40,001 nt of DNA from Oscillospiraceae bacterium (GTDB lineage: Bacteria > Bacillota > Clostridia > Oscillospirales > Oscillospiraceae), in contig JAFQNL010000030.1 in the NCBI GenBank assembly GCA_017395935.1, positions 1-40,001 of the forward strand, given 5' to 3'. The notes below the pieces were generated by a model, which was given only the letters and a program-made list of their open reading frames with translations, had not been told where the DNA came from and ran no database searches. The translations under genes and the position numbers were made by a program. Position 1 is the stretch's first letter. Each line of letters starts with the position of its first letter. This document shows, piece after piece, positions 1,729 to 26,033 of the stretch.

Positions 1729-2871
1729 ATGAAAAAGATCATTCTGGCTCCGGATTCTTATAAAGGGACTTTGGACGCTGTCGGGGCATCCGAGGCGATG
1801 AGAGCGGGGATTACAGAGATATTTCCCGACTGCCGGGTGGTCTCTCTTCCGGTAGCCGACGGGGGAGAAGGGACGGTAGCGTGCTTTCTCCGGGCGATGG
1901 AGGGACAGCAAGTGAGGGTTTCGGTGACCGGTCCCTTCCCCGGGGAGCGTGTGGAGGCGGTCTATGGCCTGCTTGGCTCTTGCGCGGTGATCGAAATGGC
2001 TGCCTGCGCTGGGCTTCCTCTGGCAGAGGGCCGGCTGGATCCCCTGCGTACCACCACTTACGGGGTAGGGGAGCTGATCGCCCATGCCTTGAAGGCCGGG
2101 GCGAAGGAGATCCTTCTGGGACTGGGTGGAAGCTGTACCAACGACTGCGGCGCCGGTATGGCTGCCGCTCTGGGCACCGTCTTTTATGACCGGAAGGGAG
2201 CGTCCTTCCTGCCTGTGGGAGGGACGCTGGACCGGGTGGAGCGCTATGACGACAGCCGGACCCGGGCGCTGCTGGAGGGGGTCTCCGTTACCGCCATGTG
2301 TGATATTACCAACCCCCTCTATGGCCCTGAGGGGGCGGCGTATGTCTTTGCGCCCCAGAAGGGAGCGGACGGGGAATGCGTCAGAAAACTGGATCATAAT
2401 TTACAAAAAATGGAAAATGTGATCCGTCAGCAAACCGGGCTTCTGGTCCAGTCCATGGCCGGGGCCGGAGCGGCCGGGGGCATGGGCGCCGGAGTGGCCG
2501 CCTTTCTGGGCGGCCGGCTGGCACCGGGTATTGACGAGGTTCTCCGGCTGACAGACTATGAGGGACATCTGGCCGGGGCCGATCTGGTTATTACCGGTGA
2601 GGGACGCTTTGACAGTCAGAGTCTGGAGGGCAAGGTGGCCTCCGGTCTGGGCCGGAGGGCAAAGGCGGCCGGGGTTCCGCTGGTAGTACTGGCCGGCGCG
2701 CTGGGAGAGGAGCTGGACTGGGCCCGGGCGGAAGGGCTGGGTATTTCCGCCGCCTTCTCCATTAACCGGGCGCCGGAGCCCTTTGAGACGGCCCGATATC
2801 GGACGGCGGAAAACCTCCGCCGCTCTGTCCGGGAGCTTATGCGGCTGATCCGGCGGCTGGAAGGGAATTGA
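1729..2871 (+). CDS. glycerate kinase (GarK/GlxK family)
   Basis: ATP-dependent phosphorylation of D-glycerate to phosphoglycerate, feeding the lower glycolytic pathway from glycerate, glyoxylate or sugar-acid breakdown. The 380 residues match the family length. Visible family blocks are the N-terminal KIILAPDSYKGTLDAVGA, the ADGGEGT segment, and GLGGSCTNDCGAGMAAALG near residues 130-150. The ATG at 1729 follows an AGGTG site. It is a single-gene unit, divergent from crr and closed by a strong hairpin at 2899-2928. Whether the product is 2- or 3-phosphoglycerate cannot be told from the sequence. Confidence 0.93.
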   Translation: MKKIILAPDSYKGTLDAVGASEAMRAGITEIFPDCRVVSLPVADGGEGTVACFLRAMEGQQVRVSVTGPFPGERVEAVYGLLGSCAVIEMAACAGLPLAEGRLDPLRTTTYGVGELIAHALKAGAKEILLGLGGSCTNDCGAGMAAALGTVFYDRKGASFLPVGGTLDRVERYDDSRTRALLEGVSVTAMCDITNPLYGPEGAAYVFAPQKGADGECVRKLDHNLQKMENVIRQQTGLLVQSMAGAGAAGGMGAGVAAFLGGRLAPGIDEVLRLTDYEGHLAGADLVITGEGRFDSQSLEGKVASGLGRRAKAAGVPLVVLAGALGEELDWARAEGLGISAAFSINRAPEPFETARYRTAENLRRSVRELMRLIRRLEGN

Positions 2872-19177: not shown

Positions 19178-19218
19178 AAAACTGCCCCGCCTAACTGCGG
19201 ATGCTCATATAACAGTTT
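19178..19218 (+). repeat. left 41-bp arm of outer inverted repeat
   Basis: Starts AAAACTGCCCCGCC and ends AACAGTTT. It matches the reverse complement of 20401-20441 at 32 of 41 positions without gaps, including the first 14 and last 8 bases. The two arms enclose about 1.26 kb of lower-GC DNA. Confidence 0.7.
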
Positions 19219-19247
19219 CAATCCCGACAGATTCTCTGTCGGGATTG
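19219..19247 (+). terminator. galM terminator
   Basis: Perfect 13-bp stem CAATCCCGACAGA / TCTGTCGGGATTG with a 3-nt loop, followed by a T-rich stretch. It abuts the left arm of the 41-bp repeat. Confidence 0.8.
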
Positions 19248-19274
19248 TTCTATCTTTCAGCGATATGATAAAAT
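19245..19274 (+). promoter_or_regulatory. candidate promoter of the island GNAT gene
   Basis: TTGTTC (19245-19250), 18-bp spacer, TAAAAT (19269-19274), about 40 nt before the ATG. The -35 overlaps the end of the galM terminator. Confidence 0.5.
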
Positions 19275-19317
19275 GGGAAAAACAATTAGATAAACTGTAA
19301 TTTCACGAGGTAATAAA

Positions 19318-19749
19318 ATGGTACATTTAGTTGATATTGATGGCGGAAATTGGCGAGTTCCCTTAAAGGTTTCAAAAGAACAAGAAGTATATGTAGCAAA
19401 CAGCACAACAATTCTTGCACGAGCATACGCATATCGAGACTCCAGAAGTCGTGCACTCTTAATTTACGAAGATGAAAGGCCCATAGGAATGGTTTTATAT
19501 CACGATGAAGAATTACTCAATGCGTATATTTTCAGTGAACTATTCATCGATGAACAGTTTCAAGGAAAAGGATATGGGCGGACAGCAACAAAACTTGTAT
19601 TAGATAGCATGAAGAAAGACGGAAAATATAGCAAAGTCATCCTTTGTTATATTGAGGGTAACGAAGCAGCAAAAAAACTGTATAAGCACTTTGGTTTTGT
19701 TGAAATAGACCGTGATGACGATGAGGTAATTATGGAATTGGAATTATAA
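19318..19749 (+). CDS. GNAT family N-acetyltransferase (low-GC island)
   Basis: A 143-residue acetyl-CoA-dependent acetyltransferase. The CoA-binding motif A is clear (FIDEQFQGKGYGRTATKLV, about residues 81-100), followed by the second conserved region NEAAKKLYKHFGFVE. The general shape resembles diamine/spermidine N-acetyltransferases, but the substrate is not established. Its DNA is AT-rich (roughly 35-40% GC by eye) with codons such as AAA, ATT and TTA, unlike the 60% GC neighbours, which suggests recent transfer. The start at 19318 has ACGAGGTAA upstream. It lies inside the outer 41-bp inverted repeat, upstream of the DUF559 unit. Confidence 0.88.
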   Translation: MVHLVDIDGGNWRVPLKVSKEQEVYVANSTTILARAYAYRDSRSRALLIYEDERPIGMVLYHDEELLNAYIFSELFIDEQFQGKGYGRTATKLVLDSMKKDGKYSKVILCYIEGNEAAKKLYKHFGFVEIDRDDDEVIMELEL

Positions 19750-19830
19750 GGAAGGGATAAGCCAATCCCAATATGTCAAACCGAGGGGCGCACTTCTATA
19801 CACCGTTCGGTGTAGCGCGTTGAACGCGGT

Positions 19831-19926
19831 ACTTGGCTCTCCCTTTGGGTGAGCTGGCGGTGAAGCCGACTGAGAGGGACTTGGCTCTCCCTTTGGGAGA
19901 GCTGGCGGCGAAGCCGACTGAGAGGG
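19831..19926 (+). repeat. two tandem 48-bp palindromic units (left)
   Basis: Units at 19831-19878 and 19879-19926 differ at 2 of 48 positions. Each begins ACTTGGCTCTCCCTTTGGG, where GCTCTCCC-TTT-GGGAGAGC forms a hairpin (perfect in the second unit), then a shorter CGGC-GAA-GCCG hairpin, and ends GACTGAGAGGG. Confidence 0.9.
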
Positions 19927-19932
19927 CAAACA

Positions 19933-20313
19933 ATGACCATACCAAAAGATAACAGCCAATTGAAAAATGCCCGTCGGCTTCGCAGGGAAATGACTCCCCA
20001 TGAGCGCAAGCTCTGGTACCTTTTTCTCCGCAAATACCCAGTAAAGATTTACAAGCAGCGGATTATCGGAAAATTCATTGTGGACTTTTACTGTGCTTGC
20101 GCAAAGCTGGTTATCGAAGTAGATGGTTCCCAGCATTATGAGCCTCAAGGTATGGCATATGACGCAGAACGTTCCGCATTTTTATCGGCTCTGGGCTTGG
20201 AGGTCTTACGATTTTCCAACCGGGATATCGACAGGGATTTTCGTGGTGTGTGCGAACAAATTGACATTACCATTCAAACCCGGCTGCAAGGCCCTCTCAG
20301 TCACCTGCGGTGA
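19933..20313 (+). CDS. DUF559 (Vsr/PD-(D/E)XK-like) protein
   Basis: A 126-residue protein of the DUF559 family, whose fold is related to very-short-patch-repair and other PD-(D/E)XK nucleases. Visible are the N-terminal ARRLRREMTPHERKLWYLF and the putative catalytic core IGKFIVDFYC followed by LVIEVDGSQHY, where an Asp and the E-x-D pair are candidate metal ligands. Nuclease activity is inferred; DUF559 has no settled function that I know of. The ATG at 19933 has only the repeat tail GAGAGGG as a possible SD. The final residues PLSHLR and the stop are encoded inside the inverted repeat unit. GC content is intermediate between the island GNAT gene and the core genome. Confidence 0.88.
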   Translation: MTIPKDNSQLKNARRLRREMTPHERKLWYLFLRKYPVKIYKQRIIGKFIVDFYCACAKLVIEVDGSQHYEPQGMAYDAERSAFLSALGLEVLRFSNRDIDRDFRGVCEQIDITIQTRLQGPLSHLR

Positions 20314-20338
20314 CAGCTCTCCCAAAGGGAGAGCCAAG
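20292..20338 (-). repeat. inverted 47-nt palindromic unit (right)
   Basis: Read on the minus strand it begins CTTGGCTCTCCCTTTGGG, keeps the first 25 nt of the left consensus, has an 11-nt variable part within a GTCACC-GCA-GGTGAC hairpin and ends GACTGAGAGGG. Same length and layout as the left units, in opposite orientation. Confidence 0.9.
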
Positions 20339-20370
20339 GCTGCTTGCAATCGAATGTATGGATATAAGAA

Positions 20371-20400
20371 ATGGAGCGTATCGGTATTGATACGCTCCAT
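20371..20400. other. 12-bp hairpin at the right end of the island
   Basis: ATGGAGCGTATC (20371-20382) and GATACGCTCCAT (20389-20400) form a perfect stem with a 6-nt loop, abutting the right 41-bp arm. It could be a terminator for the island transcript, though no good T-run follows. Confidence 0.7.
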
Positions 20401-20441
20401 AAACTGTTTTACGAACACCCGCCTAATGGCGGGGCAGTTTT
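20401..20441 (-). repeat. right 41-bp arm of outer inverted repeat
   Basis: Reverse complement of the left arm at 19178-19218 (32/41 identical). It contains an inner hairpin CCCGCC-TAAT-GGCGGG (20418-20433). It ends 28 bp before the 2-hydroxyacid dehydrogenase stop codon. Confidence 0.7.
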
Positions 20442-24827: not shown

Positions 24828-26033
24828 ATGTTAAGAGGAAAGACTGTCGTTCTGGGCGTTACCGGCGGTATCGCCTGTTATAAGTCGGCCTCGCTGGCCT
24901 CGGTACTGGTCAAGCAGCACGCCAATGTCCAGGTGCTCATGACCGAAAATGCCACCCAGTTTATCTCCCCCATTACCTTTGAACAGCTTACCGGCAATAA
25001 GGCGCTGGTGGATACCTTTGACCGAAACTTCCAGCACAATGTGGCCCATGTATCGGTGGCCGATCAGGCAGACTTTGTGCTCATCGCGCCGGCCACGGCC
25101 AATGTGCTGGCCAAGCTGGCCCACGGGCTGGCCGACGATATGCTGACCACCACCGTTCTGGCCTGCAACTGCCCCAAGGCGGCGGCCCCGGCCATGAATA
25201 CAAAAATGTATGAAAACCCGGTGACTCAGGACAATCTGGACATCCTCCGCCGGTACGGCTGGGAGATTATCGAGCCTGCCTCCGGCCGGCTGGCCTGCGG
25301 TGCCGTGGGCAAGGGCAAGATGCCCGAGCCGGAGGATCTGCTGGAAGTCTGTCTCCAGCAGCTGGCCCATGAGAAGGACATGAAGGGTAAGAAGGTACTG
25401 GTCACCGCCGGCCCCACCCGGGAGTCGCTGGACCCGGTCCGCTATCTCACCAACCATTCCTCGGGCAAGATGGGCTACGCCATTGCCACAGCCGCTGCCC
25501 GCCGGGGCGCGGAGGTGACGCTGGTCTCCGGCCCGGTGGAGCTGAAGAAGCCGGCCTATATGGAAGTGGTGGATATTGTCTCAGCCCAGGATATGTTTGA
25601 GGCGGTCACCAGCCGGGCAGCCGAAATGGATATTATTATTAAGGCGGCGGCGGTGGCCGATTACCGGCCGGCGACGGTGGCTGAGAATAAAATGAAGAAG
25701 AAGGAAGAGGGGGAGATGTCCATCCCTCTGGCCCGGACCCGGGATATTCTGGCCTGCCTGGGCCAGAACAAGCGGCCCGGCCAGTTCCTCTGCGGCTTCT
25801 CCATGGAGACCGAGCATATGCTGGAAAACAGCCGGAAAAAGCTGGAGAAAAAGAAACTGGACATGATTGCCGCCAACAATCTGAAGGTGGCCGGCGCCGG
25901 CTTTGGTGTGGACACCAATATCCTCACCCTGATTACCCCGGACAGCGAGAAGCAGCTCCCCCTGCTGAGCAAGCAGGAGGCGGCCAACGCCCTGCTGGAT
26001 GAGATCCTGCTCCGCCTGAACGGGCGAAGCTGA
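24828..26033 (+). CDS. coaBC: bifunctional phosphopantothenoylcysteine decarboxylase / phosphopantothenate-cysteine ligase
   Basis: Two consecutive steps of coenzyme A synthesis. The 401 residues show CoaC first (about 1-185): the flavoprotein start GVTGGIACYKSASLASVL, the His-containing NVAHVSVAD, PAMNTKMYENPV with the conserved Asn, and the substrate clamp Cys in GRLACGAVGKGKMPEP. CoaB follows (about 186-401), with VTAGPTRESLDPVRYLTN and NHSSGKMGYAIA for nucleotide binding. The ATG at 24828 follows AAAGGAGGA. It is divergent from the probable pantothenate S component. Confidence 0.96.
   Translation: MLRGKTVVLGVTGGIACYKSASLASVLVKQHANVQVLMTENATQFISPITFEQLTGNKALVDTFDRNFQHNVAHVSVADQADFVLIAPATANVLAKLAHGLADDMLTTTVLACNCPKAAAPAMNTKMYENPVTQDNLDILRRYGWEIIEPASGRLACGAVGKGKMPEPEDLLEVCLQQLAHEKDMKGKKVLVTAGPTRESLDPVRYLTNHSSGKMGYAIATAAARRGAEVTLVSGPVELKKPAYMEVVDIVSAQDMFEAVTSRAAEMDIIIKAAAVADYRPATVAENKMKKKEEGEMSIPLARTRDILACLGQNKRPGQFLCGFSMETEHMLENSRKKLEKKKLDMIAANNLKVAGAGFGVDTNILTLITPDSEKQLPLLSKQEAANALLDEILLRLNGRS

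Follow-up and report, generated by a model that had tools for sequence, protein, structure and literature searches.

Genes of the DUF559 family are found, across phyla, next to repeats with the geometry of intrastrand triplex motifs, commonly with inverted copies on both sides. In the window, a stretch of 40,001 nucleotides from the Oscillospiraceae contig JAFQNL010000030.1, one such gene and its repeats probably form a small mobile element. The DUF559 nuclease, whose association with the repeats is observed, would mobilise them in a manner resembling the REP/RAYT systems, but with an unrelated nuclease. The features of the locus are collected in Table 1.

Table 1. Features of the DUF559 locus and of the cassette around it (positions in the window)
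Feature	Position	Strand	Basis
Bidirectional terminator arms	left 19182..19191; right 20428..20437	+ (left arm)	read by eye
Left terminal inverted repeat CTGCGGATGCTCATATAACAGTTT	19195..19218	+	relatives compared; followed by a hairpin, 19220-19246
Cargo gene, GNAT acetyltransferase	19318..19749	+	profile
Hairpin CGCAC..TACACCGTTCGGTGTA..GCGCG left of the repeats	19789..19819	+	sequence; also among the close relatives listed
Outer left unit, 48 nt, type A	19828..19875	+	repeat comparison; one stem mismatch (GGGTGAG)
Inner left unit, 48 nt, type A	19876..19923	+	repeat comparison and triplex finder
DUF559 (PD-(D/E)XK, Vsr-like) nuclease gene, 126 aa	19933..20313	+	open reading frame and profile
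Right inverted unit, type A	20291..20338	-	repeat comparison and triplex finder
Right subterminal hairpin	20371..20400	+	repeat comparison, relatives
Right terminal inverted repeat AACTGTTTTACGAACACCCGCC	20402..20423	+	relatives compared, end-pattern search

The protein encoded between the repeats matches the PF04480 profile with an E-value of 4.8e-30 and a score of 104.1 bits (cut-off 20.6), which confirms the assignment to DUF559 and the PD-(D/E)XK superfamily that had been proposed. The two left units are 94% identical to each other and the right unit is 88% complementary to 19880-19927 over a span of 48 nt. The GAGAGGG tail on the left ends at 19926, 6 nt upstream of the ATG, and from this position it may double as the ribosome-binding site of the gene. 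At the other end, the residues P-L-S-H-L-R and the stop codon are coded within the right unit. The palindrome TACACCGTTCGGTGTA (19799-19814) is contained in the longer hairpin upstream of the repeats and is common to the close relatives listed. The original prediction had described two direct 48-nt units before the gene and one inverted unit after it, a left tail ending 6 nt ahead of the start codon, the last six residues and the stop inside the right unit and a further palindrome upstream, and each of these details can be read directly from the DNA.

Each unit is built, in order, of a pyrimidine arm CTCTCCC, a TTT loop, a purine arm GGGAGAG, a second loop of 18 nt with a hairpin of its own and the tail GAGAGGG. 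Read in mirror order, the tail matches the purine arm of the stem, a feature that the original prediction did not mention; this is the geometry of an intrastrand triplex with a purine third strand. All three elements (pyrimidine arm, complementary purine arm and mirror purine third strand) are present, and two of the three window units are perfect over 7 triplets while the third has one stem mismatch. A finder of triplex geometry places the perfect motif CTCTCCC/GGGAGAG/GAGAGGG of the inner left unit at 19885-19926 (+) and that of the right unit at 20292-20333 (-), in both cases with the tail directed towards the gene. For the window repeats, intrastrand triplex motif is a better description than plain REP.

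The stems vary by lineage (CCTCCCTT, CCTTCCCCT, CCCCTCC, TCCCCCTTT and others), and the tails appear to vary with them. With candidate tails picked without regard to the stem, the third-strand rule (G opposite C; A or T opposite T) is followed perfectly in 76 of 131 distinct units, compared with a mean of 19 and a maximum of 27 when the tails were dealt among the stems in 500 permutations. Since units within a lineage are related, this covariation of third strand and stem across lineages is to be taken as support and not as a calibrated probability.

In an alignment of 39 DUF559 sequences, from which rows with internal stops were left out, 11 columns are invariant: E24, W28, Q42, D51, F52, E62, D64, G65, H68, D77 and R80. 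By analogy, the invariant residues D51, E62, D64 and H68 are predicted to form the catalytic core. A relative of solved structure is identified by sequence in PDB entry 3HRL (E 7e-14). The accessible text of PMC1189080 places E. coli YcjD near Vsr within the PD-(D/E)XK superfamily. The DUF559 domain also occurs in Caulobacter VsrA, a protein that the available part of PMC12907096 connects with DNA-damage signalling and predicted mismatch repair.

To determine how general the arrangement is, DUF559 loci were gathered by profile from relatives, the phylum and the class, by similarity in genome contigs and from a plasmid collection. Inverted flank copies, scored by an alignment that is blind to triplex geometry (score at least 14), are present at 49 of the 69 usable loci (72 in total) but at 3 of the 185 other genes taken from these loci. 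The triplex motif itself lies within about 230 nt of the gene in 136 of 144 DUF559 loci (of 150 gathered); among control genes the figure is 59 of 451, and shuffling of the flanks leaves 1 of 144. It stands on both sides with the tails gene-ward in 83 of 144 loci against 4 of 451 control genes. Because intergenic flanks might be special, a narrower control set took in just those genes whose gaps on either side measure 60 nt or more; any motif is present in 26 of these 130, and inward motifs on both sides in 3 of 130. Inward motifs predominate over outward ones on the left (112 versus 46 loci) as well as on the right (97 versus 52). As close copies are not independent, the proteins were clustered at 60% identity, after which the motif is retained in 39 of 43 representatives and both flanks are inward in 20 of 43.

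The arrangement recurs across phyla: motif-bearing loci include those of Anaerolineaceae (L098), Bacteroidales (L109), Omnitrophota (L102) and WOR-3 (L104). The possibility that the repeat occurs in the window alone, or that homologues elsewhere lack flanking copies, is thus contradicted by the repeats and flanked homologues found in other genomes. Of the 144 loci, 136 have a motif, at differing places, and the triplex finder detected none in the remaining eight (L020, L025, L221, L156, L086, L090, L105 and L108). In the plasmid collection (16 of 33 records used) the strict motif accompanies 12 of 16 DUF559 genes and 4 of 19 control genes, and both flanks carry it in 6 of 16 and 2 of 19, respectively; this contrast is weaker than that of the main set, and one record (L291) encodes a fused long protein.

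Two loci have a context of their own. On a Sphingomonas plasmid (L283, 1462-1872) a DUF559 gene flanked on both sides by triplex repeats sits between sufB and sufC. At an N. gonorrhoeae locus (L281, about 1501-1791) the gene has long direct flank repeats (score 75) together with a triplex motif on its right side.

The names A and B that we give to the Clostridia units are those of this analysis and do not follow the TMECO type A/B sequence rule. With a rough pattern rule, both flanks could be typed in 34 loci, and in 17 of these the two units differ in type, the window pair being A and A. By the same rough typing, the right flank in the genome set is type A in 38 of 73 cases and type B in 13 of 73. 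A strict B-gene-A order was considered and is not established, unlike types being found in just 17 of 34 loci.

Five DUF559 matches contain in-frame stops (G011, G032:C36, G395:C60, G435 and G376). Among such loci, L213, L222 and L206 still adjoin a motif and L025 has none. These interrupted genes suggest turnover.

The repeats also occur without the gene. We mapped 40 repeats in 266,559 bases of genome G514 and 14 in 113,908 bases of G580, of which 35 and 13, respectively, are intergenic; the reversed sequences gave 6 and 2 matches. Tail-to-tail neighbours at most 400 nt apart number nine in G514:C1 and three in G580:C4, and all 12 pairs are heterotypic. Eleven of them are spaced by 21-47 nt, and the twelfth, with a spacing of 399 nt, brackets the DUF559 gene of the G580 contig. 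The solitary repeats and doublets look like non-autonomous derivatives that lack the gene.

A pattern for the common form of the repeat is found in 36 of 243 genomes of the class, while its reversal gave one match overall. Where a standalone DUF559 (48 bits or more) is encoded, 24 of 29 genomes contain the pattern, compared with 12 of 214 where it is not, and five or more copies are present in 14 of 29 and 6 of 214, respectively; as the pattern was drawn from DUF559 flanks, these figures are biased towards them. The profile search returned no DUF559 match in the repeat-rich genomes G514 (59 copies), G394 (26) and G391 (17). Y1 transposases (PF01797) are encoded in 147 of the 243 genomes, the repeat-rich G366, G367 and G391 included, but no PF01797 match was obtained in the host genome or in G436, G580, G548, G514 and G394. 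The latter five contain 13-59 repeat copies, and the repeats therefore need no RAYT there.

Paralogues within one genome indicate what is shared between places. Of 32 such pairs compared, the eight with the most similar genes or flanks were taken to locate the edges of homology. In four of the eight (L017/L032, L190/L217, L201/L224 and L024/L035) the core homology of 78-87% has its limits at or within the repeat units, and repeat-gene-repeat can therefore move as one unit; L017/L032 and L201/L224 have further separate short matches besides the core. For L188/L215 the homology continues beyond the repeats, in two pairs that involve L214 it stops at the gene end close to the end of a contig, and L213/L013 has separate flank matches without a core match. 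The proteins of the remaining 24 pairs are mostly diverged (38-67% identity).

In the host genome itself (2.07 Mb) the repeat is rare. One further place was found at E <= 0.001, C30:42110-42186, and a search for the stem pattern with up to three mismatches added one weak site, C12:3571-3590. The expectation of numerous solitary copies in the host therefore failed, and dispersed copies are plentiful in other genomes such as G514 and G580. The C30 copy also matches the DNA that follows the right unit, and the element therefore runs past 20338. This second host copy (L002, 1482-1640; G000:C30 from 42110 onward) consists of a partial repeat and the right end with no DUF559 gene between them, and it resembles a deletion derivative.

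In a search for empty sites, the hydroxyacid dehydrogenase gene downstream of the element was looked for in 32 genomes of the genus. The element is absent downstream of that gene in nine of the ten closest relatives (L228-L237 without L234; L232 ends at a contig end). These nine loci were rejected as a clean empty site because galM was found next to the dehydrogenase gene in none of the 16 relatives tested, and upstream synteny is thus not kept. For the inner repeat-gene-repeat unit no target-site duplication was established.

The DUF559 unit of the window is nested in a cassette of about 1.2 kb (approximately 19195-20423) that the original prediction did not mention. It is bounded by terminal inverted repeats (..GTAAAACAGTT), has hairpins close to its two ends and includes a cargo gene. 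The cargo is a GNAT acetyltransferase in the window and in L051, a MazG-like protein in L049 and a RidA-like protein (Ribonuc_L-PSP) in L056. As an insertion, the cassette seems to occupy the loop of a bidirectional terminator with the arms CTGCCCCGCC and GGCGGGGCAG; similar arms were recognised by eye in L049, L054, L056, L057 and L064. The right end of the cassette is present in 37 of 295 genomes of the order (two matches for the reversed pattern), also at places where no DUF559 gene was seen. The cassette therefore explains the horizontal spread of this copy and not the association of DUF559 with the repeats, and it was probably moved by another enzyme. At L325 (G758:C24, near 24932-24950) a cassette-like end adjoins a fragment of a DDE_3 transposase, presumably of IS630 type, which is a candidate mover of the cassette. 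A similar block, CAACCC.GT..GACAGATGCCGTAAAATAGT..ACTGTYTTACGAGCACC, lies near the right-end motif at L309, L311, L312, L319 and L331; these sites seem to be short derivatives, or else a different element that shares this end.

A related situation exists in E. coli, where the DUF559 gene is ycjD (PF04480, E 1e-48). In KE47 the last codons of ycjD lie within a TMECO repeat at 1815-1850 (minus strand), and another TMECO follows at 2022-2057. NEBExpress (B lineage) has a truncated motif at the end of ycjD, and there the finder marks just the intact one that lies about 170 nt downstream. The gene was seen at one locus, between sapF and fabI in the fetched strains, and the ycjD stretch is covered to at least 80% in 3365 of 5426 genomes. 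Four fetched strains without ycjD have efflux genes after sapF, in agreement with the accessible part of PMC12817139; this indicates replacement at that locus, and ycjD was set aside as an empty-site case.

Copy numbers in E. coli were taken as the places with any match to a 683-nt query, and they are lower bounds (at least the number given) in 1440 records. Among the 60 listed of 5399 records, less one record of 0.23 Mb, the median number of other matching places is 32 (20-36) for the 37 that have ycjD and 7 (2-32) for the 22 that lack it (p 5.8e-9). Among the same records listed, some without ycjD are nevertheless rich, with 21 places in an O157:H7 record and 25-32 in three others. This correlation probably follows phylogroup; according to the available portion of PMC12817139, ycjD occurs in two further sequence types besides phylogroups A, B1 and C. 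K-12 and an O157 strain have a TMECO doublet before mrcB that is missing at this site from SE15 and P276M and has collapsed into a single hairpin in EH2252, from which it follows that doublets come or go.

A RAYT gene stands alone between inverted palindromic REPs, and REPs also occur singly and as inverted doublets, mostly in intergenic DNA. The DUF559 loci share this layout with REP/REPIN and RAYT (TnpA-REP) systems, having one gene between inverted repeats that are also solitary or in doublets and mostly intergenic. They differ in that the gene encodes a PD-(D/E)XK nuclease, with no Y1 HUH gene, and in that the repeats carry a mirror purine third strand. Since the enzyme is not a RAYT, the window unit would work like a REPtron without being a member: inverted repeats do flank the gene, but DUF559 takes the place of the Y1 HUH gene and the genome has no PF01797 match. 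The REPtron-like unit originally proposed is supported, with two corrections. Flanked homologues elsewhere and paralogues that share the gene and repeats alone (four of eight pairs) agree with it; the corrections are that the enzyme is of another kind and that the repeats, which are rare in the host, are triplex motifs. As in the original prediction, we infer that DUF559 cuts or spreads the repeats. The known REP superfamilies are tagged GTAG or CGTC, as far as the accessible text of PMC3733652 describes them.

The repeats have a closer counterpart in the TM/TMECO/boxC/PIT repeats. The portion of PMC4666352 available to us reports intrastrand triplex motifs from more than 260 genomes, including the TMECO/boxC repeats of E. 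coli, describes a three-stranded fold of TMECO in vitro and notes that triplex loci are unstable in E. coli. As in the window, these repeats have pyrimidine, purine and mirror purine arms; as with the repeats of G514 and G580, they fall into two types, are intergenic and form heterotypic inverted pairs (5 of 5 for TMECO), whereas the window pair is A and A and the DUF559 flanks are unlike in half of the typed loci. The second loop of the TMECO consensus is 3 nt, whereas that of the window unit is 18 nt with a hairpin (PMC4666352, same portion). The window further differs in having a nuclease gene between inverted copies, while that portion of PMC4666352 reports that no genetic-mobility activity was found around TMECO sites. 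E. coli YcjD (NF007294/PRK09767) likewise belongs to the DUF559 family and its gene ends in a triplex repeat (intact in KE47, truncated in NEBExpress), but the window protein, at 75.9 bits, falls short of the cut-off of the YcjD model, which is 218. The Vsr-like nucleases are related to the window protein through the DUF559 domain (VsrA) or sequence similarity (3HRL); VsrA is treated as a mismatch-repair enzyme and no link to repeats is described in the accessible part of PMC12907096. We found no report that connects a DUF559 or ycjD nuclease with triplex or boxC repeats in the open literature, most subscription papers and bioRxiv lying outside this coverage.

Other explanations of the association differ in what they take DUF559 to do. 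It could be a selfish homing endonuclease that uses existing triplex repeats as safe intergenic landing sites, with something else spreading the repeats, but we consider this unlikely. The EDxHD homing enzymes are Vsr-like, and homing would fit the repeat-rich genomes without a DUF559 match (G514 and G394) and the paralogue pairs in which homology ends within a repeat (L201/L224 and L024/L035). The accessible part of PMC6083498 names EDxHD as a homing endonuclease family. However, the repeat sequence changes along with the gene between lineages, and the unlike flank types in half of the typed loci are not expected from the splitting of one repeat. Homing also leaves the repeats without a mobility enzyme; the five repeat-rich genomes G436, G580, G548, G514 and G394 gave no Y1 match. 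The lack of a PF01797 match in these genomes and in the host likewise makes it hardly credible that Y1 (HUH) transposases move the repeats with DUF559 as a bystander, in spite of the REPIN-like architecture and the wide occurrence of Y1_Tnp in the class, some repeat-rich genomes included.

A housekeeping role, in which DUF559 as a structure-specific repair nuclease would trim folded repeats or resolve them and would be kept nearby because it limits their instability, is distinctly improbable. The damage-related role of VsrA and the instability of triplex loci in E. coli (accessible text of PMC12907096 and PMC4666352) are in its favour; a repair gene, however, need not be bracketed with both tails inward, nor share exactly repeat-gene-repeat between places, as four of eight paralogue pairs do. 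A passive neighbourhood, with repeats and DUF559 gathering in permissive intergenic or horizontally acquired regions and no functional link between them, is very improbable. Close relatives of the window unit, from differently named genomes and with proteins at most 94% identical, do appear to have been transferred with the larger cassette. This reading had nevertheless already been weakened by the controls, in which other genes of the loci, intergenic-matched ones too, have a motif far less often, and the pattern persists over the 43 protein clusters.

In the mobilisation of the repeats by DUF559, which we favour, a repeat that becomes single-stranded, on the lagging-strand template or in a transcription bubble, would fold into a hairpin or triplex. 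The element's own DUF559 would recognise the folded repeat and nick or cut at or beside it. Repair or strand transfer would then copy the unit, or a gene-less doublet, into a new intergenic site. In the window the unit would additionally ride in the GNAT cassette inserted in the terminator.

We give even chances to the wider proposal that DUF559 mobilises triplex repeats throughout bacteria. These would then constitute a new class of mobile element, whose Vsr-like nuclease would recognise folded and perhaps three-stranded DNA at the ends of its own unit, spreading itself and, in trans, the gene-less doublets; ycjD with boxC/TMECO would be the K-12 representative. If this is true, a cognate nuclease would account for the dispersal and pairing of the triplex repeats and for the instability near them, and a function would be gained for a family that is widespread but of unknown role and has an E. 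coli K-12 gene among its members. The question of what DUF559 does is directly testable in K-12.
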